Shown: positions 104-16,108 of the stretch, in pieces
How positions within the stretch are numbered: the first letter of the stretch is position 1
Layout: each line of letters starts with the position of its first letter
Source: a virus
DNA length: 21,279 nucleotides
Strand: one strand, 5' to 3'
IMG/VR virus record: IMGVR_UViG_3300025547_000039
Span: 1-21,279 of that record
The notes under the pieces: generated by a model
What the model was told of the DNA's origin: nothing
What the model saw: the letters and a program-made list of their open reading frames with translations, nothing else
Database searches by the model: none
Made by a program: the position numbers and the translations under genes

Positions 104-499
104 TTAGAATTTATCTTTCCATTTTCTATTATATTCTTGTTTAGCCCAATTCTCAGCTTTCTTTTCCCACTTATTATCGTGATATCTTTCAAAACCTTGT
201 ACATCAGCCATATCATCTGCTTGTTGATACTTCTTCAGAAACTTTTTCCTACCATATTTCTTAACCATATCAGCATGATGAATTTCGTGTAGAACACTTA
301 CAATAAATTCCTTGACATTCTTGTAGGATTTTCGTAAATTAATAATATCTTTATCCCAATCATAATCACCATCATTATTACCCTTTACATTAAATTTTAC
401 TTTACTTCGTAATCCATAGTATTCAACTAATTCAGATGCAATGTATTGAAAATCAACTCGTTCCATCAGTAGATGTATTGTTGCTAGTTTAGGTATCAT
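104..499 (-). CDS. Small HExxH metallopeptidase-like protein
   Basis: A 131-residue protein with the zinc motif His71-Glu-Ile-His-His75 in the context FIVSVLHEIHHADMVKKYG. Downstream, WEKKAENWAKQ (from Trp111) resembles the 'E..A..FA' third-ligand helix of ImmA/IrrE-type gluzincins, with Glu112 as candidate ligand. The strand before the motif (DKDIINLRKSY) also fits this fold. The length is that of a minimal single-domain peptidase, with no signal peptide. AGGAG lies 6 nt before the ATG. Phages use such proteases for varied purposes (removing repressors, processing proteins), and similar HEIHHA proteins are, from memory, common in marine phages. Substrate unknown. It is the last gene of the block here and is followed by a weak hairpin. 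Confidence 0.68.
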   Translation of the reverse strand: MIPKLATIHLLMERVDFQYIASELVEYYGLRSKVKFNVKGNNDGDYDWDKDIINLRKSYKNVKEFIVSVLHEIHHADMVKKYGRKKFLKKYQQADDMADVQGFERYHDNKWEKKAENWAKQEYNRKWKDKF

Positions 500-834: not shown

Positions 835-1158
835 TTAATCATCTGCATGTTCTAATAACTTATTATCATTCTCTTGGTTATTAAACCAGAAATCAACAAC
901 TTTACTGAAACTTGCTATAAACCCACCTAACAACACCAATAGAATTTCCTTCCACTCTGGCATTAGGTCTTTTCCCTCTCCGATATAGAATAACATTAAC
1001 ATCAGTACACTCATAAATATCACCATAATAATTAAAGATACGTACCACTTTCTAGCTTGACGATATTGTATAATCCCAATCAACTCTTTATTAATCCAAT
1101 GTTTTTGGTCTTGGCGAGTGGTTGCATCGTTTAACTTTGCTATTTTCTTATCAATCAT
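835..1158 (-). CDS. Holin-like two-TM protein
   Basis: A 107-residue protein when started at the ATG at 1158, which overlaps the upstream stop as ATGA. A longer form starting four codons earlier (at 1170) is possible but has no better ribosome site. It has a charged 36-residue N-terminal part and two hydrophobic segments (37-59, WYVSLIIMVIFMSVLMLMLFYI; 71-91, EILLVLLGGFIASFSKVVDF), then a charged tail. The second segment with VVDFWFNNQENDNK resembles the 'vv.FwFGSS.gSk.K' end of phage holins of the GTA_holin_3TM type. Holins make lethal holes in the inner membrane to time lysis. Placement next to a spanin-like gene fits. No endolysin is visible in the window. Confidence 0.62.
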   Translation of the reverse strand: MIDKKIAKLNDATTRQDQKHWINKELIGIIQYRQARKWYVSLIIMVIFMSVLMLMLFYIGEGKDLMPEWKEILLVLLGGFIASFSKVVDFWFNNQENDNKLLEHADD

Positions 1159-1889
1159 TTCCAATCCCATATTTTTAGTGCATTATAAGTTACACCGAAC
1201 CCAATTACGGGTTCTGTTAAACCAGTACTCTTATCGTATTGAACTCCTACAAATGGTCCAACACTAATTTGGTTTTTTGGTGGTTTAACTTTTATTCTCT
1301 GTCCGTCACCACCACTCATATAAACACTATTACCACCTGATTCCCAAACTCTATCATCGTTATACACCAGATATTCGTGTTTACCAACTTGGTCAACCAA
1401 AGGTGCACCAAATTGTAATCTACCATCAAACCCAACATTAGTTTCTGAATCTACTATTGCGTTATTCTGTAATTTATATCCCATTCCACCAAACACTTTC
1501 ATATAAGCATCTTGTGAACCGAACTCAAACTGAAATGGAATTGTATTCATATATGCTAATCCCAATTCTATTCCAAGACTATCGAGGTCATCTTTCAAAT
1601 TTTTAATTTTCTGATTGTACTCGGTATTCCATTTTACTTGTTCGTAATATTTTACTTGTAAATCTTGAAGTTCATTGTGTTGGTCATTTGATAATTCCCT
1701 CAAATACTCAACCTCTTGATTTAAAGTATCTATCTCAACTTTATTGACAGTTATTAATTCTTCCTGTCTACCTGAATCTTTGGTTAAAAAATCCATTTCT
1801 TGTTTGGCGTAATAATATCTTATACCCACAACAGCAAGTACAATCAAGATGTTTATTACAACACCAAGAATCGTATCTTTTCTAACCAT
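1155..1889 (-). CDS. Spanin-like protein: TM, coiled coil and beta-rich C-terminal domain
   Basis: A 244-residue protein with an N-terminal hydrophobic segment (residues 6-23, TILGVVINILIVLAVVGI) and a coiled coil over about 41-105 (VEIDTLNQEVEYLRELSNDQ). The C-terminal region of about 130 residues is rich in Gly and Tyr and ends in VGPFVGVQYDKSTGLTEPVI, GFGVTYNALKIW. The first two parts are the architecture of inner-membrane spanins (Rz), which link to the outer membrane during Gram-negative lysis. I associate the 'vGP..G..yd....p.iG.g..Y' ending with spanin-like proteins of Bacteroidota phages. Its start overlaps the second CsgG-like gene (TAATG) and its stop overlaps the holin-like gene (ATGA). 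Together they look like a lysis cassette. No partner o-spanin is obvious. Confidence 0.65.
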   Translation of the reverse strand: MVRKDTILGVVINILIVLAVVGIRYYYAKQEMDFLTKDSGRQEELITVNKVEIDTLNQEVEYLRELSNDQHNELQDLQVKYYEQVKWNTEYNQKIKNLKDDLDSLGIELGLAYMNTIPFQFEFGSQDAYMKVFGGMGYKLQNNAIVDSETNVGFDGRLQFGAPLVDQVGKHEYLVYNDDRVWESGGNSVYMSGGDGQRIKVKPPKNQISVGPFVGVQYDKSTGLTEPVIGFGVTYNALKIWDWK

Positions 1890-2434
1890 TATTCAAGTGT
1901 AGATATTGCATTATCAATAGCTTTTCTAACTGCTCCACCCAACTCTGTTTTGTTGAATGGTACATCTTCAGAAATTTGTAATCCTGTCGCTGTAATTGTT
2001 GTTGCAATTTCACCCTCACCCCTCGATGATTTAACTATACCAGATTTGGTGTTTTCCATATTCACCAATAACCTAACTTCTGTTTTAGTACTTCTACGAT
2101 TAAATAATCCTACAATACTAAATGCTTCATTAGGTTTACCAAGATACACTACTTCTACTGATGCTACAAAATCTGCATTATTATCATCAGTTAAAATATA
2201 CCTTGTATCTGAAAATGATTCTTGTAATAATTGACGGATACCGAATGTTATTCTGTCATCCTCAACTACTACTTTTTCAGAAACACTAACAAACTCTGAT
2301 ATTCTTAAAGTAGGTCGTTTTAGATTACCCTCACCAATTATTGATGGTGTTGGTAAATCCTGTCCGTTAATCATAGACATACATGCCCATCCTAATACAA
2401 ATCCAAAAAGAAATCTTTTTGTAATTTTACCCAT
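1889..2434 (-). CDS. CsgG-like secreted protein, second copy
   Basis: A 181-residue protein from the internal ATG at 2434, which places a signal peptide (GKITKRFLFGFVLGWACMSM, cleavage near NGQ at 23-25) at the N-terminus. The mature part fits the CsgG fold: PTLRISEFVSVSEK, RITFGIRQLLQESFSDTRYI, ADFVASVEVVYLG, EVRLLVNMENTKSGIVKSSR with the GEGE turn, and a C-terminal helix LGGAVRKAIDNAISTL. The cysteine at residue 18 is preceded by Gly-Trp-Ala, a poor lipobox, so lipidation is uncertain. This contrasts with the first CsgG-like protein, which has a clear lipobox. Its stop overlaps the spanin-like gene's start as TAATG. Two unequal CsgG paralogues in one operon might form a mixed channel or two different channels. 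Confidence 0.75.
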   Translation of the reverse strand: MGKITKRFLFGFVLGWACMSMINGQDLPTPSIIGEGNLKRPTLRISEFVSVSEKVVVEDDRITFGIRQLLQESFSDTRYILTDDNNADFVASVEVVYLGKPNEAFSIVGLFNRRSTKTEVRLLVNMENTKSGIVKSSRGEGEIATTITATGLQISEDVPFNKTELGGAVRKAIDNAISTLE

Positions 2435-2440
2435 TTTCTT

Positions 2441-2446
2441 CTCCTT
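2441..2446 (-). promoter_or_regulatory. Shine-Dalgarno fixing the start of the second CsgG-like gene
   Basis: AAGGAG ends 6 nt before the ATG at 2434 and overlaps the TAA stop of the barrel gene. The longer open frame beginning at 2500 would overlap the barrel gene by 56 bases, has no such site, and would bury the signal peptide. The start at 2434 is therefore preferred. Confidence 0.8.
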
Positions 2447-3440
2447 AAAAGTAAGTTCCAAATAATAAACTATATGTTTTACTTCGTTCACCATAGTCAT
2501 TTACGACTGTATTTATTCCCATAGAGAAACCAAGATTTAATTTAAATGCTTGGCCCACTTTCCAATCCATCGAAATGGTAGGAAACATTATTATTGGACT
2601 TCTCAGTAATAAATATCGTTCACCTCGATTATTACCATCATAATATCTCAGTAAAGTATATGCCATATAATTACTTATTAACAAATCCGCATTACGGAAT
2701 TTGAATGGATATGTAATACCATATACTATACTAACATTAGCAAAATTATATTCACTAACATTACCATATGTTGCTGCCAATACAATTGCTTCTGACATTG
2801 GTTTTTGTAGGGATTTTGCGTAGGATACCGAAGCTAACCAATCCCACCCCTCAAAAGTTTCAAACGCTAAGACAGTACCATTCCATTGTACATTTTGTTT
2901 CTTAGCTTTAAATTTAAATCCTTGTCCGTATGTTATCGAACCCTTTCTTAAATCATCTGTAAAATTAAAATTCCCATCGTGTGTTCTACCACCATCAAAA
3001 CTTTCTTTTGTGTAAACACTATTAAAAGAAGTAATCCACTTACCTGTTAAGGAATCTCGTGTAGTACTCTGTATGGCGTAATTTACCTGCGATGCATCAA
3101 CTGATATATCATCTGTTTTACTAAATTGAGATGCCACACCACTGGCAATTACTGATGATAAAACCTCTTCTGCAACCCGAACTGCACACGGAAATAAATC
3201 TTCAAAATCATTGTAAACTGATTCCGCCCACGCTTCTAATTCACCATTTAAAACTTGTTCAAATGTAAAATATCGGGTACGATTATAATATGTAACTTGA
3301 AATCCACCACTATCATCTTCTTGTAGTGAATACGACTCCTTAATCGTTGTCTGGTTACAGGGGTCAATATAACTATAAAAAAAAGACTGGGCAGAAACCG
3401 AGCTACAAAGTACTACTAAGTATAGAAATTTCTGCCACAT
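2445..3440 (-). CDS. Predicted outer-membrane beta-barrel protein of the CsgG cluster
   Basis: A 331-residue protein with a signal peptide (LYLVVLCSSVSAQ, cleavage near residue 17-18). The N-terminal periplasmic part has two cysteines (Cys28 in YIDPCNQ, Cys85 in LFPCAVR) that could form a disulphide, and a VTYYNRTRYFTFEQVLNGEL segment. From about residue 130 to the end the sequence alternates polar and hydrophobic strands, and the last residue is Phe (LLFGTYF), the usual sign of BAM-inserted barrels. It lies between two CsgG-like genes and so probably belongs to the same export assembly. The Shine-Dalgarno is weak (only GGT in the upstream gene's end), suggesting coupling to that gene. I recall proteins opening with 'YSYIDPC' beside CsgG genes in marine viral contigs, but no function. 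Confidence 0.7.
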   Translation of the reverse strand: MWQKFLYLVVLCSSVSAQSFFYSYIDPCNQTTIKESYSLQEDDSGGFQVTYYNRTRYFTFEQVLNGELEAWAESVYNDFEDLFPCAVRVAEEVLSSVIASGVASQFSKTDDISVDASQVNYAIQSTTRDSLTGKWITSFNSVYTKESFDGGRTHDGNFNFTDDLRKGSITYGQGFKFKAKKQNVQWNGTVLAFETFEGWDWLASVSYAKSLQKPMSEAIVLAATYGNVSEYNFANVSIVYGITYPFKFRNADLLISNYMAYTLLRYYDGNNRGERYLLLRSPIIMFPTISMDWKVGQAFKLNLGFSMGINTVVNDYGERSKTYSLLFGTYF

Positions 3441-3448
3441 TCATTTTG

Positions 3449-4090
3449 TTACCAACCCTTTCGGTCAATTGCTCGTATTGCATTAACAACAGCAGTTTCC
3501 ATTGCCTTGTTACCTGCAGAACTTAAAGAACTTTGATTAAACTCCATGTTAGGATTCTTTAAAAATCCTTGGCCTGTAGTTTTAGCTCTACCTTGTCCAC
3601 TACCAACAACATACTGGGTGTTTTCTAAATTAACTAATTTAACTTGAATACCTATAATGGTTTCATTACTTGTTATTATTTTCCCACCTTTTATATCCTC
3701 AGTAAGATTTACTGCGAAATCATAAATGGTAACATATCCCCAATACTTGGCAACATCAATTTTTGCGTTGTTTGCTTTTAAATCATTCAACATCATTAAT
3801 TGATTATCTCTGTCGGCCTCTATCAAATTGAATCTTCCTGTATAAGATGCCACATTTTCCATTTCTTGTGTAAGACCAAATGCAACCCTTTTTTCTGCAA
3901 GTTCTGGATATCTTTCTTCGAGTTCTTTATTAATTTTTAACTCTACTATTTTTAATCCATCAACTTTGGTAATTTCTACCTCATCCAATGATTTCTGCTT
4001 TTCATACTCACCAACATATTGTTCGGTAGATACTGATGCAGCACACCCGTATAAACCTATTAGTAACAATATTGAGAATATCTTGTTCAT
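3449..4090 (-). CDS. CsgG-like outer-membrane lipoprotein
   Basis: A 213-residue protein. It has a lipoprotein signal peptide with lipobox Leu13-Tyr-Gly-Cys16, so the mature protein would be acylated at Cys16 and sent to the outer membrane. The body fits the CsgG family: RVAFGLTQEMENVASYTGRF, then LIEADRD, a KYWGYVTIYDFAVNL strand, TIIGIQVKLVNLENTQ and the closing SSLSSAGNKAMETAVVNAIRAI. CsgG forms the nonameric outer-membrane channel that exports curli subunits in E. coli. At 213 residues it is shorter than E. coli CsgG (277), so part of the channel may be missing. AGGAG lies 6 nt before the ATG. A second CsgG-like gene lies two genes downstream. I recall CsgG-like genes in some marine myoviruses. 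No curlin subunit gene is visible here. Confidence 0.75.
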   Translation of the reverse strand: MNKIFSILLLIGLYGCAASVSTEQYVGEYEKQKSLDEVEITKVDGLKIVELKINKELEERYPELAEKRVAFGLTQEMENVASYTGRFNLIEADRDNQLMMLNDLKANNAKIDVAKYWGYVTIYDFAVNLTEDIKGGKIITSNETIIGIQVKLVNLENTQYVVGSGQGRAKTTGQGFLKNPNMEFNQSSLSSAGNKAMETAVVNAIRAIDRKGW

Positions 4091-4103: not shown

Positions 4104-4514
4104 TTATCTGAAATCCGATAACGGGTCTTTCAGTAGTTTTTCCAATCGTTTAATCTCACCATTTAATTTATCAATCTCATTTTCGAGTTTGATAATATCA
4201 CCATCATAAGATTTAATCTTTGGGTTTTTTAGTTTATCAACTTTCTCACGAAGATATTGTAACTCACCATCATATCCTGTAAATATCTCATCATACTTAT
4301 TGAATTTTTCTGTTACGATTTCGATATCACTTGCATCTGCAAAACCTGTAACTACTTCTTCCAACGAATCAATGCGGGCAGTAAAACTATACCAACCAGC
4401 AATAGCGGTAGAAAGAAAAGTAACAATAGCAACAATGTTATTAATCGATAATCCAAACTTTTTTCCTTTAATCTCTTCAACGAGATTCTCCGCATCTACT
4501 ATGTCTTTTGCCAT
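4104..4514 (-). CDS. Membrane-anchored coiled-coil protein
   Basis: A 136-residue protein with a 24-residue cytoplasmic head, one hydrophobic segment (about residues 25-44, INNIVAIVTFLSTAIAGWY) and a long periplasmic part. That part is a predicted coiled coil (about 46-58 and 85-130, including IIKLENEIDKLNGEIKRLEK). The start follows AGGAG with a 6-nt spacer. It lies directly upstream of a CsgG-like lipoprotein gene, so it may be an inner-membrane partner reaching towards the outer-membrane export proteins. Alternatively it may be a spanin-type or holin-accessory protein, since its topology resembles an inner-membrane spanin without a C-terminal domain. I do not recognise a named family. Confidence 0.72.
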   Translation of the reverse strand: MAKDIVDAENLVEEIKGKKFGLSINNIVAIVTFLSTAIAGWYSFTARIDSLEEVVTGFADASDIEIVTEKFNKYDEIFTGYDGELQYLREKVDKLKNPKIKSYDGDIIKLENEIDKLNGEIKRLEKLLKDPLSDFR

Positions 4515-4590: not shown

Positions 4591-5460
4591 TTATATCTCC
4601 ACATTTATGGTTAACTGAAATGTATTACTTAAAGGAAAGGTTTCATCACCATTGATGTACCCAACCCCTACTCTGTAACTATCTACTTTAAATCCTAAAC
4701 CAACTGAAGAATAATTTAGTTCGTGAGTTACATCATTAAAGTATCCAATGTTAAAATCCATTAAATTCTTGTATTGATATTTTAACCCTTGACCGTGTGT
4801 ATGATATCCATCATACAAATTCCATTGGTTGTAAAATCTAAAATCTTTTACTGGTACTGAAAACCCTACATTAACACTTGTAGGTACTTCTGTTTTCCAA
4901 TCATTAAATTTTGGTTGATATCCAAAGTTTTGAATTGCTAAATCTAAATCAACTCTACTCCATAGATTTTTAAAGTGTACTCCAGCATCTACAAGTATAC
5001 CAGTTGCTTTATCAGTATGTAATGTGTGGTTAACAATTTTACCACCAAAACCAATAGCAATGTTTTCTACTTTTTTTCTTTTGTGTTCTAATTTAGTACC
5101 CCACCCTACATATGCAACAAGTGAGTTAGGACTAAATTGTCCTGATATAGTTCCATTTATATCTGCAACATTTTGTTCACCATAATCAAAGTATAGTAAA
5201 CTAAATGTTAGATTTTTATATCCAGCACCAACATAGTTATATCCCATATCATCTGTAATATTAGTTAACCAATTTACTCTTGTAAAACTTAAATCAACTA
5301 AACTATCTGTATCAAAATACGCACGAGCAGGATTATGAAATGCCAATGATTGGTTTCCTAAACTTGCTTCTTCTGCTGTTGGTGATAATGTTAATATTCT
5401 ATTAACTTGTCCAAATAAAGAACTGATTAATAGTAAACTTAATAATATTTTTTTCATCAT
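4591..5460 (-). CDS. PorV/PorQ-like outer-membrane barrel protein (T9SS-associated)
   Basis: A 289-residue protein with a signal peptide (MMKKILLSLLLISSLFGQ) and a beta-barrel pattern throughout. The mature N-terminus (NRILTLSPTAEEASLGNQSL, then AFHNPA) matches the PorV/PorQ/UPF0164 signature 'P.a.. aSlGna..a...NPA'. It also has VGAGYKNLTFSLLYFDYGE, typical of these FadL-like barrels, and ends in alternating strands with a terminal Ile. PorV is the T9SS outer-membrane shuttle that binds sorting domains after translocation. This copy is shorter than typical host PorV (nearly 400 residues). It lies 6 bases after the T9SS cargo gene, which strongly suggests they act together. Two ATGs are adjacent. 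AGGA fits the second (5457) better. The alternative is a general porin-like barrel. The family call is good and the specific partner is inference. Confidence 0.78.
   Translation of the reverse strand: MMKKILLSLLLISSLFGQVNRILTLSPTAEEASLGNQSLAFHNPARAYFDTDSLVDLSFTRVNWLTNITDDMGYNYVGAGYKNLTFSLLYFDYGEQNVADINGTISGQFSPNSLVAYVGWGTKLEHKRKKVENIAIGFGGKIVNHTLHTDKATGILVDAGVHFKNLWSRVDLDLAIQNFGYQPKFNDWKTEVPTSVNVGFSVPVKDFRFYNQWNLYDGYHTHGQGLKYQYKNLMDFNIGYFNDVTHELNYSSVGLGFKVDSYRVGVGYINGDETFPLSNTFQLTINVEI
4597..4600 (-). promoter_or_regulatory. Shine-Dalgarno of the cysteine-rich micropeptide
   Basis: GGAG lies 7 nt upstream of the ATG at 4589, inside the last codons of the PorV-like gene (the Val-Glu codons, just before the final Ile and the TAA stop). 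This well-spaced site is the main support for calling the 19-residue peptide a real gene. Confidence 0.65.
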
Positions 5461-5466
5461 CTTTTC

Positions 5467-8100
5467 CTACTTCACGACCGTGAATTTGTTAGCTTTAATT
5501 CTCTTATCTGTTTCAAGAACAAATATATAAACACCTGGTTCTAATACTTTATGTTCTTGATAAACACTTTCTTCTGGTAACCAAGCACCTGGTGTGTTAC
5601 TAAAATCAAATGTATGAATACCTTGTGAAACTGGTTCATCTAATAATTTACCAACATATTGTCCCATTGAATTTAAGATGTATATTTTAACATCAGTTAA
5701 CTCATCTACATAAAATTGGAACTTTGTAGTTTCATTAAATGGATTAGGATAGTTATAAGTTATCTCATCATCATCTGGTTCTCCACCACCAAATGCCCAA
5801 TACTTATTCCATACTAATATTTTACCATCTTGTTTATTTACTAATAAATCTTGACCACTTGGATTACCAGCTACACCTTTACCAACAAATTGTACATCTG
5901 CTTCAGTCCACTCTGAATCAGGAAAATCTGCTTGGAAAATCATATTCAATGCAATCATAGGTTCATTAATCCAATATTGTTGTGGTGCATTACCTGGTGA
6001 ATAATCCATACCACCAAACGATACTTTCTGATACCCTATATCATCAGGTTCGTGTACATTTACATAAGTAAACCACGGGCCTGGAAGAACATCTGTTTTC
6101 ATATCAATAAATGTTAACTGATTGGTATTGAATAACACCTCGAACTCAAATCCAGCAACATCAATATTTTTTAATTGGTCTGGTGTAATATAAAATGGTA
6201 CTTCTATTTGGTCACCACTTTGTACTCTGACAGTTGAATCTGCTGGCATTGAGAAAAATACATCTGGAGTTTGAGTAGCAATTTTATTTGCCCAAGTACC
6301 TGGTGCACTTCCGTTACCCCAACGATAGAATGTTGTTCCATTTACATCTATATACCCATCTGCATCATTACCTGGTTCTTGTACTTTAGTACCAGTATTA
6401 TTAATATCTCCTGTAAAGAAATATCCCCAATCAGGTAAAGTTAAATCTGGATTAGCATCACTACCATATGTAGAGTTACCTGCACCTAATGTTACACCCA
6501 AAGTATCTAACCCAGTCTGAATTGTATTCATCAATGGATTAGTAACTTCAATCACTCCAAAGTTCAAATCTTCATCTTGGTCAAAATCATCATCCTCATA
6601 GACTGTAAATTCGTATTTCTGTGCTCCTAAATCTTCATACCATTCATATGGAAATGGATTACCATTTTCTTTTAATGTATCAATCGTACTCCAATTCTCA
6701 TATGAGTTTCCATTTAAGTGTGTATAGTTTTCAAATATACCTGAAGTATATGCCCATAAGAAATAAGCATCATTTAATTGAAATACATCATCACCATCAA
6801 CATCACCAATAAAATATTCAACTGCATCTAAAGTATCAACACCTGTTACTGATTTCCATTTGTTACTTTGAAAATTAAATGCAGCAATAGCATCATTAAT
6901 ATTTGTAATTGCATATCTATCAAGTTCGTATTGTGTATGTGTACCTATATCATCATCTGCATCTGGTGGATAAAACGATACACGATAGTAATTATTTCTT
7001 GGTAATTGAATATTAAAATATCCTCTATCATCAACAAATGTAGAATCATAATAACTAATTCCTAAGAAACCCTCACCTGGTAAAGTTTGTGCTGCAGTAG
7101 TTCCTTGGTCATCAAACCAAAATGTAGATGTTCCATCACCGATAACATCATCAGTAGTGGTTTCATCAGTATTACTTGTCTCATCATCTATATCCTCAAT
7201 GTTATACCAATTAGAAACACTACCTGGATTACTTTGGTCAAGTTCAAATACAACTTTCCAATAAGGATAAGTTCTATCATCATTAGTACCATTTCTTTGT
7301 GCGTATCTAAAGAATCCCTCAACATCTAAAAGTTTTGGATGTAGTGTGATATCTCCACGAGCACCACCATCATCAGTTTCGTCCGTTCCCCAATTACCAT
7401 CGATGTAAACCTTGTAATCTAAAAGATAATCGTCTGAAGCGTATGTGTAGTACCCAAAACCACCATTGTATAATGTTGGAACTCTAAACGATTGTGGTGA
7501 AAAATTATCTACTACATCTTCTATTTTAAAATTTAATTTTATTAATTGTTTTTGTACACCATCACCACCACCAAATTCAAAAGTATTTCCATTGTGTGAT
7601 ACCATAGTGATTCTTAACCAATCATATCTATTATTGTTTTCAGATATTTCACCATCTGCAGTTTGAAGTGAATCAATATATCCTACATTAGAATAGTGTA
7701 CAACTTCATATGAGTAATCTGCTCCTGCAGTTGAATCTCCCTCTGTTGCACTTGATAAGTGAGAACCCTTTAATACTTCTGTATCATCGTGGTCCCAATC
7801 AATTAAATCATTGTCAAAAACTATATCTAATCTAAATGCTGTTATATCTGCACCATTATCATCAAGTGTAACTTCCATTGTCATCACACTATCTCTAAAT
7901 GCATCAAAGTTATTGTTATACAATGCAGGATTATCTTTATCATCTGCAAGGTATGTTTGTAGTTGGAAAGTTTCCGATTCTCTCCACCAAGTTTTTGGTA
8001 AATTATATTCGCCTGTTTGTTTGATTCGGATTATCGGCTCTTGTGCCCACGATAGGGAAATTACCAATAATAGAACCAACGATTTTAAATAATTGGACAT
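5467..8100 (-). CDS. Secreted T9SS cargo with cohesin-like and dockerin-like regions
   Basis: An 877-residue exported protein. It has a Sec signal peptide (residues 1-19, ...VLLLVISLSWAQ). A beta-sandwich region at about 45-197 has a cohesin-like strand pattern (VTLDDNGADITAFRLDIVFD). Near residue 433, GDVDGDDVFQLNDA has Asp at positions 1, 3, 5 and 12 like a dockerin calcium loop, and a second, interrupted one lies near 566 (GDINNTG...DADGYIDVNG). A clearer cohesin-like domain spans about 620-762 (VRVQSGDQIEVPFYIT...VAGFEFEVLFNTNQLTF). Residues about 780-877 form a T9SS type A sorting domain: NYPNPFNETTKFQFYV, VKIYILNSMGQ, GVYIFVLETD and a final KANKFTVVK. T9SS exports such proteins across the outer membrane and then cleaves or anchors them. 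The start has AAGGA with a 7-nt spacer. The next gene is PorV-like. A phage-borne T9SS substrate is unusual. Its target is unknown. Confidence 0.85.
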   Translation of the reverse strand: MSNYLKSLVLLLVISLSWAQEPIIRIKQTGEYNLPKTWWRESETFQLQTYLADDKDNPALYNNNFDAFRDSVMTMEVTLDDNGADITAFRLDIVFDNDLIDWDHDDTEVLKGSHLSSATEGDSTAGADYSYEVVHYSNVGYIDSLQTADGEISENNNRYDWLRITMVSHNGNTFEFGGGDGVQKQLIKLNFKIEDVVDNFSPQSFRVPTLYNGGFGYYTYASDDYLLDYKVYIDGNWGTDETDDGGARGDITLHPKLLDVEGFFRYAQRNGTNDDRTYPYWKVVFELDQSNPGSVSNWYNIEDIDDETSNTDETTTDDVIGDGTSTFWFDDQGTTAAQTLPGEGFLGISYYDSTFVDDRGYFNIQLPRNNYYRVSFYPPDADDDIGTHTQYELDRYAITNINDAIAAFNFQSNKWKSVTGVDTLDAVEYFIGDVDGDDVFQLNDAYFLWAYTSGIFENYTHLNGNSYENWSTIDTLKENGNPFPYEWYEDLGAQKYEFTVYEDDDFDQDEDLNFGVIEVTNPLMNTIQTGLDTLGVTLGAGNSTYGSDANPDLTLPDWGYFFTGDINNTGTKVQEPGNDADGYIDVNGTTFYRWGNGSAPGTWANKIATQTPDVFFSMPADSTVRVQSGDQIEVPFYITPDQLKNIDVAGFEFEVLFNTNQLTFIDMKTDVLPGPWFTYVNVHEPDDIGYQKVSFGGMDYSPGNAPQQYWINEPMIALNMIFQADFPDSEWTEADVQFVGKGVAGNPSGQDLLVNKQDGKILVWNKYWAFGGGEPDDDEITYNYPNPFNETTKFQFYVDELTDVKIYILNSMGQYVGKLLDEPVSQGIHTFDFSNTPGAWLPEESVYQEHKVLEPGVYIFVLETDKRIKANKFTVVK

Positions 8101-11083: not shown

Positions 11084-14000
11084 TTACTCAACTTTTAACT
11101 TAGAATCACCAGGTTCTTGTGTTACCAACCTTGAAGGTGTAGTAATCGTTATTTCAACTGGGTCTAATCCATCCATCGTGTTGCTTTTTGTTAAATTGCT
11201 ACCTTTATAGAATAACCTAAATAGTGATGAATCAAGTGCTACACTCGTGTATGAACTTCTTTCGTATGATGCACTAAATTGGTAATTCCCATTGTACTCT
11301 GTATGATATCCATATCCCTTTGCTATTGAATCCGATAATGAACTCGTATAGTAAGGAACTTTAATATCATTGTGTTCTGATAATCTTGAAGCAGTGATAA
11401 AAGGTTGAACCGCTTCTTCAAATGTTATATCTATATCACCAAATGTAATACTTGCTGTTGCATAAAGTGATTGGAATGGTGTTCTTGGGTCTATCTCTGC
11501 TATCTTATTTAATGTTGGATTCCCAAGTATTCCAATTGAACCACTATCCATTGTATATAAATTAATTTCAGCTTCATATAAAGGTAATGTACCAGAAAGT
11601 GTAAATGGATTAGGTGCTGCAGAACTACTTAACCTACTTGATAATTGTATTCCATCTCCAAATTGATTAGCATTTTCATAATATGTATTTTCGAAACTTG
11701 GTACTTTACCCACTACCTGTTTACTTCTCTCTAAAATATTTGGTTCTATTAATAAACCAAGTGTTGCATTTGTTCTTGCTGGGACCATATTCCTTAATTG
11801 ACTCCAAATACTTCCATCAAAGAAATGTATGATTCTCATATAATCCCAAAAGTTGTTTGAACGACTATACTTTTTCCAATACTCTCGCTGTACTCTCTCT
11901 AATCCTCGATAGGTATCCGCGTATTGGTCTCTTGGGTCACCAATTTCATTATCAAGGTTTATATCTGCTAATGAATACATTATATCTTCATTTATTACAT
12001 CAGTAGGTGAAAAGAATATACCGAGTTTATTACTATCTATAGGTGCGTAATCCATTGACGATTGTTCAACTCTAATGTTTGATGATAAGTTACCGCTTAG
12101 TTTAGTTGCCTCACTTCTAATCTTTGTTGCGTTTCTTCTTTGAGGTCCAATGTTGGGAACTCTTAATTTTTCTTGGTCTACTAAGCTTCTAAATGGATTA
12201 CCACTAAACCCAACTGCACTAGCACTTACATAATAACTTGTAGTGTAAGATTTATCATCGATGGATTCTGGTAAAGCATTTAAATCAGTATTATCATTTA
12301 ATGGTAATCTGAATATCATATTATCATACGCAGAACTTGTTGTATTTCCATTATAACTTTTTGGTGCTTGGACATGATTATCAAATGCACTTTGTGATAA
12401 TGGTTCACTCCACAATCTAAACTCCATCATTGAACCACTAAACCTTGTACCAAATTCTCCGTTACCACCTATATAAAATGTACCATCAGTATGGAACGCA
12501 TTATTAAATGCTGCTCCAGCAGAAGCATTTCCATCTATACTTACACTCTCACTTGTTTGATATAAAATAACTTGCCTTGTAGCATCATATTGTTTTGATG
12601 TTAACTGATATGTTATATCTTGTGCGTTTGCATCTGTTACTAAATCTAATCCACTCTGTGATACGCGTGTTAACATCACACTCCACATATCATTATTATA
12701 AAATGGTTGTAGTGATGATGTCATAAATTGAATACCTGTTGATGCAGATACACTAAATCTTAACTTACCATAAGAATCGGTTGCTCCGTTATCTTGTAAT
12801 TGGATTGCAAAACTATGATTACCAACACCTTTCTGAACTATTGTCATATCTTTTGATGTTGGTGCTCTAAATCTAAATTCTAAAGTTTCTGGTTTGATTC
12901 CACTTGTACCATCATCTTGCCAAGGAAATTGTAAATACTCACTTGATTTAAAATCAGCAGCATAATTAAATTTTCTTTTTATTTCGTAACTGATACTATC
13001 ATTTAAATCTGGCCCACCATATTCTCTAATTCTTAATATTGAACTCGGAATACCATAACAATTTATCAATCCTTTCATTGCTCGTTGGTTACCTTTGTTC
13101 TTCATAAAGAATGGCATATTGGCTAAAATTCTTTTCCATATTTCTTCGGTTACAGCTTCTTGTGGTGATTCATATTTATCTGCACCACTTTCGGTTTTAC
13201 CTAACAAATATTCGGGTAAGATAACTAAATCATTTCCGCTATCAACTTCAAATCCCATACTCTTCGCTACTTCGCGAACTATATCTTTTGAAATACCCTC
13301 TGATAATTTATTACTTCGCTCATTGATATCTGTGAAGTGTCTAATATAAGACCATATCTCATCAAATTGTTGTCCAGTCATATCCATAAAATCTAAGAAT
13401 ACTTTATTCTCTGTATCGCTCGCCACATGAAGTGGTAAATTATTTACTAAGCTATTTTGGTTATAAGTATCAAATTCTTTTGCGTATCCAGTCCAAGTAT
13501 TAAACCAAGTAGTAAATGTTGAACCACTTGTATGTTCTAACACAAAGTCTGTACCATCTTCTCTTGAACCACTTGTCTTAGGCCAAGATGCATCATAAAA
13601 CTCACCAAGTGAACTTGTTGAATAACTTGATGAGATAGTATATAGATAATTTTCATATGGGTCAAAACTATTTATCACTTCTCGTTTTCTCATATTAATA
13701 CTAGCACGAGTATCAGCTGATGAAGATATATTTATTAAATTATGTGAATCTACTTTATATCCCTCTAACAATGTTATTTTCTTTTTAAAATTTCTAACTC
13801 TATTTTCTGCTCCACCAAAGTTAATAAAGTTTCCAAATCCATAATCCGTACGGTCTAAGCCAATTGCATCAGTTCGTTTAGAATAATCAATTGATAGTTG
13901 TACATCTAATAAACTACTTGAGTGTATGTAATTTGTTATATCATCTTGAACTGAAGTATCAGTTCCAATTAAATCATCATACCTTTTATAATTAGTACCT

Positions 14001-16108
14001 CTAAAATTGATTGGATTTGTTGTTGAGTTTAAATTTGGAACTCTTAAAAATAATACTTCAGGAGTTTCCTCTACAAACTTTGTTAATCTTACCATATCTT
14101 CGTATGGCTCCATCTTTTCTTCTACGAAATAAACTAAATCATTTTTCTCAATCGTCTCTGGTAATGGTGAATATGTTTTAATATATCGTGCAGTTCTATC
14201 TGCCACATCACGTATCGGTAATTTCCTATCACTATCAGGAAGTGATGATTTGGGTGCATCAAGTATATTTATACATAAGTGATATCCCTCTTTAGTAACC
14301 ATGTAAGTATTTAATCTGGTTACTTTATTTTTTCTAAAAGTTAAAAACATATCAGTAAATACATCATTAAATCTATCTTCACCACTATGGTCTGCTTTAT
14401 TTGCTCCTTCTTCATATGAAGTATCAACTCTTATTCTATTATAATCCATTATCTCAACAACCTTAGCTGTAAAATCAACGGGTACTTGAGTGAACACATC
14501 AATTGGAACTAATTCGTTTTCAAATGTTACGACAGTTTTAAATTTTAGAATAGACTCTTCATCAGTAGCAAAATCTTCAATTATTTCTTTTGTAATTGGT
14601 CTTGGTTTTACATCAACAATATATTCGTTATCTGGTTCAAGTGGTGGTGCCGTAAGTCTTTCTTGTGGAAAATCTTCATCTTCTGGTATGTTATTAATTA
14701 CTTCTTCAAGTATTTCTTCCAATTCATCATCAGCCTGGTATGCGGTACCTGAACCACCTCCACTACCACCCCCATCTTCAAAATCTTCAGATAATCTTAA
14801 CATATTAATTCTTTTATCTCTATTCTCTAAGAAATGAGTAATACTATTCCACTTACCAAGTGTTGCAGATGTTACATTATTAGCAATAATAGTATGATGT
14901 TTATCCAGTATTAGATTCCAAACATCTAATGCCCCAGCTTTAAACTCAGTACCAACTTCATTTGCTAAGTACCATTTACCTTGATGTTTAATTGGGTGAT
15001 GGTCTGTAGTGGTAAGATTTTTGTAACGAACTAATTTATCTCCATAAGGTCGATTATCCTTAACTACCTTTAATACTTTTGCGTAACCTTGTTCGGTTTT
15101 AACTTTCATACCAGGTCTCATCATCTTGATTGGAATGGTACGATTATTACTTAATTTAATTTTTGTATCCCCAGTAAAACAAACACTTCCGTAATCATCC
15201 CTATCTCTATAATCTTCGTAATCTTGGTCAGGACCGGGTGTTGTTTCTAATATTTCTCGTACTGCAACAGGTTCTTTATCGATAGTAGTTTTTACAATAT
15301 CATTGAATAATACTTTTTTATCAGTAGGTTTGGGGGTATTTCTATTTCCTTTATCAACTAAAACTTGGGTTTCTTTTTTAACCTTAATCTCTACCATTTT
15401 AGTTTCGGTTAGTGTGTATTCATACATACCCTTAATAATAATATCACCACCCACCATAGCATCCGTGAACCCTCTTTCGGATTCACCAGGAGTAAGTATT
15501 AAGACATTACCATCAGTTTTGTCAAATCTGATTGTTCCAGCACCAGAACCACCTTTTCTATTTGGAACATAAACAAAATCTTTATTTATACCAGCAAAAT
15601 TCTTACGATATGGTATATTATTAATTAATTGAATATCTACCTTTACTTCATTTTTTGATGGTGAAACTTCTTTCACCACATATTTCATTTCTTTTGCATA
15701 TACCTCTTCTAAAGTTTGATTTGTTGGTGTTTCCCCACCTTTGAAAAATCTTGTTTTACCATTGATAACCTTAGTGGATATTTTTCCCATATTGATGAAT
15801 CCCTCATCATTTACCATAATGGTTTTCTTTTGTCCAGCTAATCTTCTAAGGAAAAGATACTTTACCTTGAACTCTCCCGAATCATATCCTAAATCTCTGA
15901 TGTGGCCACCGACATCTAAATCAATTGTATTATCATTACGGAATAATACATCTCCCATATTGAGAATATCATCTTCCAATAAGTTATCTTCCATATCATA
16001 TACATAGAAATGTATAAAGTCGTTAGGGTCTCTACCAAAACCACTAAACAATCTTTTTGGATATTCTAATTGTTCTCTATCTTTTTCAGTTAAGCCAAAT
16101 TGTAACAT
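11084..16108 (-). CDS. Giant baseplate/tail protein with embedded Hint domain and LamG-like domain
   Basis: A 1674-residue protein, the largest in the window. Visible parts: an N-terminal beta-rich region (1-300); a Hint (hedgehog/intein) domain from Cys310, with CFTGDTKI, the TTDHHPI block around residues 367-373 and a closing DVWNLILDKHHTIIANN ending near residue 411; a Gly/Ser linker near 445-455; a long middle with FDPYENYLY and a conserved helical segment at about 908-970 (FMDMTGQQFDEIWSYIRHFT, then KLSEGISKDIVREVAKSMGF); a LamG/concanavalin-like jelly-roll around 1055-1275 (LEFRFRAPTSKDMTIVQKG ... GSMMEFRLWSEPLSQSAFDNH); and a C-terminal structural region. The gene follows gp6 and two structural genes, the area where T4 has its large gp7, so a baseplate/tail role is likely. 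GGGG precedes the ATG. The Hint domain lacks a homing endonuclease and the usual C-terminal His-Asn. Confidence 0.82.
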   Translation of the reverse strand: MLQFGLTEKDREQLEYPKRLFSGFGRDPNDFIHFYVYDMEDNLLEDDILNMGDVLFRNDNTIDLDVGGHIRDLGYDSGEFKVKYLFLRRLAGQKKTIMVNDEGFINMGKISTKVINGKTRFFKGGETPTNQTLEEVYAKEMKYVVKEVSPSKNEVKVDIQLINNIPYRKNFAGINKDFVYVPNRKGGSGAGTIRFDKTDGNVLILTPGESERGFTDAMVGGDIIIKGMYEYTLTETKMVEIKVKKETQVLVDKGNRNTPKPTDKKVLFNDIVKTTIDKEPVAVREILETTPGPDQDYEDYRDRDDYGSVCFTGDTKIKLSNNRTIPIKMMRPGMKVKTEQGYAKVLKVVKDNRPYGDKLVRYKNLTTTDHHPIKHQGKWYLANEVGTEFKAGALDVWNLILDKHHTIIANNVTSATLGKWNSITHFLENRDKRINMLRLSEDFEDGGGSGGGSGTAYQADDELEEILEEVINNIPEDEDFPQERLTAPPLEPDNEYIVDVKPRPITKEIIEDFATDEESILKFKTVVTFENELVPIDVFTQVPVDFTAKVVEIMDYNRIRVDTSYEEGANKADHSGEDRFNDVFTDMFLTFRKNKVTRLNTYMVTKEGYHLCINILDAPKSSLPDSDRKLPIRDVADRTARYIKTYSPLPETIEKNDLVYFVEEKMEPYEDMVRLTKFVEETPEVLFLRVPNLNSTTNPINFRGTNYKRYDDLIGTDTSVQDDITNYIHSSSLLDVQLSIDYSKRTDAIGLDRTDYGFGNFINFGGAENRVRNFKKKITLLEGYKVDSHNLINISSSADTRASINMRKREVINSFDPYENYLYTISSSYSTSSLGEFYDASWPKTSGSREDGTDFVLEHTSGSTFTTWFNTWTGYAKEFDTYNQNSLVNNLPLHVASDTENKVFLDFMDMTGQQFDEIWSYIRHFTDINERSNKLSEGISKDIVREVAKSMGFEVDSGNDLVILPEYLLGKTESGADKYESPQEAVTEEIWKRILANMPFFMKNKGNQRAMKGLINCYGIPSSILRIREYGGPDLNDSISYEIKRKFNYAADFKSSEYLQFPWQDDGTSGIKPETLEFRFRAPTSKDMTIVQKGVGNHSFAIQLQDNGATDSYGKLRFSVSASTGIQFMTSSLQPFYNNDMWSVMLTRVSQSGLDLVTDANAQDITYQLTSKQYDATRQVILYQTSESVSIDGNASAGAAFNNAFHTDGTFYIGGNGEFGTRFSGSMMEFRLWSEPLSQSAFDNHVQAPKSYNGNTTSSAYDNMIFRLPLNDNTDLNALPESIDDKSYTTSYYVSASAVGFSGNPFRSLVDQEKLRVPNIGPQRRNATKIRSEATKLSGNLSSNIRVEQSSMDYAPIDSNKLGIFFSPTDVINEDIMYSLADINLDNEIGDPRDQYADTYRGLERVQREYWKKYSRSNNFWDYMRIIHFFDGSIWSQLRNMVPARTNATLGLLIEPNILERSKQVVGKVPSFENTYYENANQFGDGIQLSSRLSSSAAPNPFTLSGTLPLYEAEINLYTMDSGSIGILGNPTLNKIAEIDPRTPFQSLYATASITFGDIDITFEEAVQPFITASRLSEHNDIKVPYYTSSLSDSIAKGYGYHTEYNGNYQFSASYERSSYTSVALDSSLFRLFYKGSNLTKSNTMDGLDPVEITITTPSRLVTQEPGDSKLKVE
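14862..15181 (-). other. Hint (intein/hedgehog-like) domain coding segment
   Basis: This segment encodes roughly residues 310-416 of the giant tail protein. It opens with the catalytic-type Cys310 in the context SVCFTGDTKI. A PIKMMRPGMKVKTEQG strand follows, typical of the 'i.dl..GD.V.t..G' Hint strand, then a TTDHHPI block matching the TxxH motif of Hint block B, and a final 'WNLILDKHHTIIANNV' that resembles blocks F/G. At about 107 residues it is a mini-domain with no room for an endonuclease. After IIANNV comes TSATLG where a splicing intein would have His-Asn then Cys/Ser/Thr, so C-terminal cleavage and splicing look unlikely. N-terminal thioester chemistry could still be intact. Block matching was by eye and the boundaries are approximate. 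Confidence 0.75.

Follow-up and report, generated by a model that had tools for sequence, protein, structure and literature searches.

A phage-borne gene cassette joining a type IX secretion cargo to a PorV-family protein

The cargo gene and its PorV-family neighbor

The present analysis concerns two adjacent genes of the virus record IMGVR_UViG_3300025547_000039, the whole of which (21,279 bases) is hereafter called the window. An earlier note, made from the sequence alone, had described here a phage late operon encoding a cargo of the host type IX secretion system (T9SS) and, directly after it, a PorV-like partner. This observation was confirmed overall, as the open reading frames (ORFs) lie at 8100-5467 (-) with 877 amino acids (aa) and at 5460-4591 (-) with 289 aa, leaving a gap of 6 bases. 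The first one (5467..8100, minus strand, like all ORFs of the cassette described below) encodes a T9SS type A cargo with a Sec signal bearing Q at +1, a dockerin-like loop, a cohesin-fold domain and a C-terminal sorting domain. The sorting domain (residues 784-877, 5470..5751) had been claimed by the note and is recognized by TIGR04183 over residues 784-875 (26.6 bits against a cut-off of 23, E-value = 4.5e-6), whereas the Pfam sorting-domain family PF18962 stays below its gathering score (18.6 against 27 bits).

Scanning with the cargo led to 52 viral loci and a profile scan to 75 (from the best 80 of 82 matches), giving 76 loci in total. TIGR04183 matches 26/26 members of the cargo alignment, the window included (E-value ≤ 0.01). 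Of 50 carrier contigs, representing 50 of the 52 loci, the profile matches 49 and exceeds its cut-off in 48; the remaining two are G686 and G689, in both of which the cargo is clipped by the contig end. T9SS tails over the cut-off never exceed one per contig, with exactly one in 48/50. The tail motif YPNP[FY] is present in 47 of the 49 distinct complete cargos and the remaining two carry FPNPF.

Concerning the body of the cargo, a low-confidence model of residues 611-765 (5806..6270) presents a cohesin fold when aligned by VIA to 6kgf_A (Z = 15.7, rmsd = 2.6, 136 residues aligned, residues 612-765), and no Pfam cohesin match was found in the window cargo at E-value ≤ 1. The loop GDVDGDDVFQLND (residues 432-444, 6769..6807), which we take to be dockerin-like from its motif, recurs in 49/49 distinct complete cargos; it has a pLDDT below 40 in the window model, and the window cargo has no Pfam Dockerin match. 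A BFVD structure search with the cargo returned nothing meaningful. Among 296 genomes of the order to which the sole matching metagenome-assembled genome (MAG) belongs, the cargo body was confined to a phage-like contig within a single Flavobacteriales MAG, and the tail region alone matched in 48 other genomes of that order. A host-gene origin of the cargo was consequently rejected and, judged by these matches, the body appears phage-specific and the tail appears to be the address label of the host.

The 289-aa product (4591..5460, minus strand) had been called PorV/PorQ-like, and it indeed matches the PorV_fam profile NF033709 over residues 23-288 (100.7 bits against a cut-off of 90, E-value = 1.1e-28), as do 26/27 members of the phage PorV alignment (E-value ≤ 0.01). 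When a profile of 27 phage PorVs was searched against the PDB, the sole significant match was PorV 6h3i_F (E-value = 1.8e-14). The 16 phage PorVs included in a 36-protein tree fall into a single clade (support 100/97), which groups with five cellular PorVs (96/94) to the exclusion of PorQ-like proteins and the rest of the family; the cellular rows are those we presume to be PorV or PorQ from their length and a porU-like neighbor. One of these five cellular PorVs comes from the same MAG into which the phage contig was binned. Although the PorQ profile NF033711 matches 27/27 phage members at E-value ≤ 0.01 and outscores the PorV profile, the tree places the phage proteins on the PorV side and PorQ identity was rejected. 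By eye, the cellular PorV-family genes of loci L088 and L089 lie directly 3' of large proteins with T9SS-tail-like ends.

In four loci (L047, L048, L060, L063) the cargo is mosaic. Its body is that of the other PorV type (identity 0.67 vs. 0.54), whereas its tail (0.76 vs. 0.49) and the PorV (0.48 vs. 0.29) are of the resident type; group means are given, since two-way clustering of tails was uninformative. At the sequence level, the mosaic shows body and tail behaving as apparently separate units.

Conservation across viral loci

The survey of related viral contigs that the earlier note had proposed located PorV downstream of the cargo, on the same strand, in 55 of the 76 loci (gap of -4 to 495 bases), that is, in every locus reaching far enough. 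It goes unseen in the other 21 because the cargo is clipped by the contig end (17) or only 58-107 bases are left (4). Retrieval with the 331-aa gene described below yielded 43 loci. In 40 of them the contig holds both genes, within the retrieved stretch in 38 and elsewhere on the contig in two (L123, L157); the remaining three start at the contig end. The cargo and PorV belong to a seven-gene cassette, comprising cargo, PorV, a membrane coiled-coil protein (136 aa), a CsgG-fold lipoprotein (213 aa), a probable outer-membrane protein (331 aa), a CsgG-related protein (203 aa) and a spanin-like protein, and all seven stand in this order in 33 loci. The odd order on the L045 contig arises because the 203-aa profile matched a 213-aa ORF. 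The idea of a T9SS cargo adjoining a PorV-family gene therefore held, while that of a standalone pair gave way to a larger conserved envelope cassette. Neither PorV (two representatives) nor the cargo, 331-aa or 244-aa protein has a tblastn match in 50,697 phage records.

The other cassette genes

Directly after PorV, a conserved 136-aa protein (4104..4514) has one hydrophobic segment and a coiled coil, its topology being assigned by eye. The 213-aa protein (3449..4090) carries a lipobox-like motif in 27/35 distinct members and is predicted to have the CsgG fold: with its AlphaFold2 model (mean pLDDT 65.5), Foldseek ranked PelC 5t0z first (E-value = 7.4e-8) and CsgG 4uv2 next (E-value = 3.6e-7), and VIA gave a Z of 13.2 with CsgG in the top 8 rows. 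No Pfam CsgG family matched it at E-value ≤ 1, nor did CsgF or CsgA/B match at that threshold among nine window proteins. The secreted 331-aa protein (2445..3440) ends in F and has two invariant cysteines in the alignment; the C-terminal residue is aromatic in 35/35 distinct members, and both features are as expected of an outer-membrane barrel, which it probably is. The following secreted protein (1889..2434) is related to the 213-aa family (hhalign probability 95.8, E-value = 7e-9); its 203-aa ORF starts at 2500, and the start at 2434 was chosen by eye so as to avoid overlap and keep the signal peptide. HMMER searches of the PDB with the 213-, 203- and 331-aa families gave no credible match. 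Finally, the 244-aa protein (1155..1889), with a transmembrane segment and coiled coil by eye, weakly matches the Rz-like spanin family phrog_739 (E-value = 5.6e-4) and reaches 19 bits with TIGR03495 (LysB), below the cut-off of 92.75. Hence, of the operon formerly described, the late phage setting with a T9SS-addressed cargo stood, and its "lysis-type genes" are weakly supported.

Signal peptides were judged by a loose pattern (hydrophobic N-terminus, then Q) on distinct proteins only. The Sec signal claimed for the cargo was recovered in this way in 49/49 cargos, and Gln likewise follows the signal in 43/43 PorVs, 35/35 proteins of the 331-aa family and 35/36 of the 203-aa family, the lone miss being a 213-aa-type protein picked up by the 203-aa profile. 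In the alignments of the signal-bearing families the Gln column is invariant.

Beyond the cassette, a small protein at 104-499 (-) shows a HEIHH zincin-like motif by eye, with a weak PF18818 match below the cut-off, and 26/52 loci have a homologue on the downstream side of the cassette, many others being clipped short.

A sister cassette without PorV

A related cassette is present in the cultured phage immuto (NC_055915), the host of which is Flavobacterium sp. LMO8. Specifically, gp017 is a homologue of the 213-aa protein (E-value = 3.7e-48), gp018 of the 331-aa protein (E-value = 6.8e-14) and gp019 of the 203-aa protein (E-value = 3e-15). They are preceded by the 243-aa gp015, which matches both Pfam Cohesin (36.7 bits against 24.1) and TIGR04183 (44.8 against 23); the record names it "cohesin domain-containing protein" and gp017-gp019 hypothetical. 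Scanning viral sequences with gp017 gave 113 relatives, of which the best 80, immuto among them, were considered. A gp018 homologue occurs in 80/80 of these sister loci (some clipped) and a separate gp019 homologue in 71/80, the other nine stretches ending 0.3-2.1 kilobases (kb) past gp017. The cargo lies upstream in 74/80; four of the other six start at the contig end, and L203 and L204 have cargo-profile matches of 136 and 246 aa in its place. Of 58 distinct sister cargos 28 were scanned, and the T9SS tail was found in 28/28 and Pfam cohesin in 24/28; family profiles were preferred, as a loose end motif occurs in only 15/58.

PorV is absent from all 80 sister loci and from 15/15 long sister-type records, immuto included, with a profile that was positive in 4/4 carriers. 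Either one lineage has therefore gained PorV or the other has lost it. The gene pair that the earlier note had put forward is present in the carriers, but PorV is not an obligatory member, given a sister cassette lacking it in a cultured phage and the 79 other viral loci examined.

In immuto, two further proteins with signal-like starts (gp013 and gp014; L184, 9782-11944) stand before the cohesin cargo, and gp013 has a C-type lectin domain. Many relatives of immuto have a single cargo of 627-646 aa instead, which also matches the gp014 profile.

Phage backbones, cassette movement and host

The phage structural setting claimed for the window was borne out by its gp6 and gp25 baseplate genes. 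Moreover, head protease, portal and T4-type terminase share one 83 kb contig (G003) with a homologous cassette, and many contigs agree; a chimeric assembly, against which the earlier note had cautioned, is therefore very unlikely and was rejected. The phrog_2 family matched 4/25 contigs, two of them strongly. A second phage type is represented by the 34 kb contig G012, where the cassette lies amid a portal and a head protease/capsid gene, both from different PHROG families, as well as an endolysin gene. None of the G012 ORFs outside the cassette matches a window protein at E-value ≤ 1e-4. Loci L043, L046 and L062 have the same backbone as G012. Since both backbones hold a phrog_38766 virion structural protein, we call them different rather than unrelated. 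The G012 cassette resembles that of the window-type locus L049 (cargo 65%, 331-aa protein 77%) more than the L049 cassette resembles that of L018, which has the same backbone as L049 (55% and 45%), and by these identities the whole cassette was probably transferred in one block from one phage lineage to another. Beside the baseplate genes of the window, a 1674-aa protein (11084-16108, minus strand) has a stretch from residue 310, starting CFTGDTKI, which we take from this motif to be Hint/intein-like; as the motif occurs in 6/33 family rows, it is a variable insert.

The viruses bearing the cassette probably infect Bacteroidota. A 9160-base phage-like contig with the cassette (L064) was binned in the Flavobacteriales MAG NAT55, and the G003 terminase has its closest counterparts in Microcystis phage Mel-JY01 (55%) and the Flavobacterium phage immuto (54%). 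The presence of Mel-JY01 among these neighbors counts against a simple reading of the host. Eleven Mel-JY01 proteins tested gave no significant match to the cassette profiles. The rule that Gln follows the signal is specific to Bacteroidetes according to the available text of PMC5837995, and phage proteins of P. gingivalis are described as obeying it (PMC10367356, in part). Mel-JY01 (L185, recorded from Microcystis) also matches the window baseplate query at 46%, besides the terminase identity of 55% with the G003 query, and its true host may deserve a check.

Proposed function and alternative explanations

Sequences, gene order, conservation, fold similarity and PorV kinship form the basis of the explanation that we favor as reasonably probable, namely that a late phage envelope module remodels the surface of the infected Bacteroidota cell by displaying a cohesin-bearing cargo through the host T9SS, with a dedicated shuttle in one lineage. 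The cargo and its partners would pass the Sec pathway and be cleaved before Gln, and the host T9SS translocon (SprA) would recognize the type A tail of the cargo. The phage PorV, made beside the cargo, may then take it at the translocon exit and retain it on, or pass it to, the surface; because the phage supplies its own PorV, a burst of cargo could be freed from dependence on the host PorV pool. The cohesin-fold and dockerin-like parts may let the displayed cargo bind itself or surface partners, around which the CsgG-fold lipoprotein, the outer-membrane protein and the coiled-coil proteins could form an envelope complex. As to the benefit, surface masking or coating, for exclusion of other phages or for aggregation, would be the most likely candidate, and lysis a less likely one. 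A stronger form, which we regard as possible but speculative, is a private T9SS branch in which the phage PorV would selectively collect the phage type A cargo from the host translocon and park it on a phage-built platform of CsgG-fold and outer-membrane proteins, with cohesin-dockerin contacts from one cargo molecule to the next polymerizing a coat around the infected cell.

Several observations weigh against surface display with a dedicated shuttle. On the side of the cargo, the model is poor (mean pLDDT 50 overall, ten-residue means of 49-82 in the cohesin-fold stretch) and the loose Gln pattern also matches 11/35 lipoproteins and 11/34 spanin-like proteins (0/36 coiled-coil proteins). Regarding the link of tail and shuttle, the mosaic of body and tail probably reflects a single recombination, which linkage alone could explain, and the tail contrast shrinks to 0.76 vs. 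0.61 when the other type is represented by its three closest loci. Many contigs are near-copies; over 45 distinct cargos for which both cargo and PorV are complete, the partial rank correlation with PorV is 0.74 for the tail and 0.59 for the body, so that the body tracks PorV too. Adjacency of cargo and shuttle genes is also not special to phages: among short stretches around the 20 nearest cellular PorV-family loci, a gene with a C-terminal sorting domain lies directly upstream by profile in L081 and with one gene between in L084, and by eye L088, L089 and L096 have a tail-bearing gene upstream as well. Furthermore, no precedent is known for a type A shuttle of this dedicated kind, because all type A cargos of F. 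johnsoniae are described as using a single PorV (PMC12618676). The same paper describes type B cargos served by cognate SprF-like shuttles, whose genes often follow immediately downstream and for which a stoichiometric requirement was suggested, and it is from this type B layout, met here with type A families, that a dedicated type A shuttle was proposed.

An alternative explanation is that the PorV-like protein is a generic PorV/PorQ-family barrel, serving a phage complex or altering permeability, while the cargo relies on the host PorV. In its favor, and likewise against a dedicated shuttle, the window protein stays below the equivalog cut-offs (NF033710 for PorV, 53.1 against 250 bits; NF033711 for PorQ, 71 against 220 bits), and the sister cassettes have type A cargos without PorV; but the phage proteins group with cellular PorV, lie downstream of a type A cargo wherever the locus extends far enough and agree in type with the tail at the mosaic loci, and we deem it unlikely. 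A module chiefly for lysis, in which a CsgG-fold pore, the outer-membrane protein and the spanin-like protein would open the outer membrane while cargo and PorV would loosen or remove the surface ahead of release, would accommodate the spanin-like match, the endolysin gene that phages of the second type have some 4 kb away from the cargo, and the proposal that CsgG pores of marine phages regulate lysis (PMC9004378, in part). The spanin match is weak, however, and the cohesin and dockerin-like parts suggest binding rather than lysis. In immuto, the annotated endolysin comes some 6 kb past the end of the sister cassette, and the spanin-like family has no match among the nine proteins tested; we hold a lysis module to be quite improbable. 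It is more doubtful still that the cargo serves in the virion or in adsorption, placed by its signal and tail in the envelope so as to decorate particles at release or the host receptor. The cargo does follow directly on two tail-fibre-like genes (335 and 337 aa, named by position), and an immuto neighbor has the C-type lectin domain; the Sec signal and T9SS tail, however, address it outside the cell and not to assembly, and in the second phage type it sits beside the portal gene, away from tail genes of the window type.

Comparison with known systems

The literature search, limited to open-licence full texts, found no report of a phage PorV, of a type A cargo with a phage shuttle or of the cassette. 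If the proposal is true, the phage PorV would be, within the literature searched, the first T9SS shuttle known from a phage and the cargo the first of type A to have a shuttle of its own, and Bacteroidota phages would possess a surface-display counterpart to the pelagiphage curli module. Its role is open to direct testing, because both immuto, which carries the sister cassette, and its host are in culture. The statement of the earlier note that no phage system of this kind had been described was nevertheless too strong, because phage T9SS cargos are already published: Cryophage encodes proteins that bear type A sorting domains, and the authors presume that these exploit the host T9SS (PMC7468147). 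The likeness lies in these phage-encoded sorting-domain proteins. In Cryophage they are three variable genes (an endoglucanase, a glycoside hydrolase and a PA14 protein) of one phage, and the available text mentions no shuttle, whereas the family of the window has one conserved cohesin-type cargo, a fixed cassette and PorV. The type VIII secretion (curli) cassette of pelagiphages, as covered in the available text of PMC9599517, has a CsgG pore and is likewise a phage-borne surface-secretion module of conserved order, transferred between phage families (see also PMC9004378). It differs in bearing curli fibres, CsgF and FecR, while the present cassette has a T9SS cargo, PorV and a CsgG-fold protein lacking a Pfam CsgG match. 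The type B cargo-SprF/PorP pairs of F. johnsoniae resemble the phage pair in having the shuttle gene directly 3' of the cargo (PMC12618676, in part), yet they combine a type B tail with the PorP/SprF family and the phage pair a type A tail with the PorV family. Finally, host PorV (PDB 6h3i) is related to the phage proteins by profile homology and by standing on the same side of the family tree, but the cellular PorVs in the tree measure 367-410 aa, and the phage proteins, at 275-315 aa, form a clade of their own.

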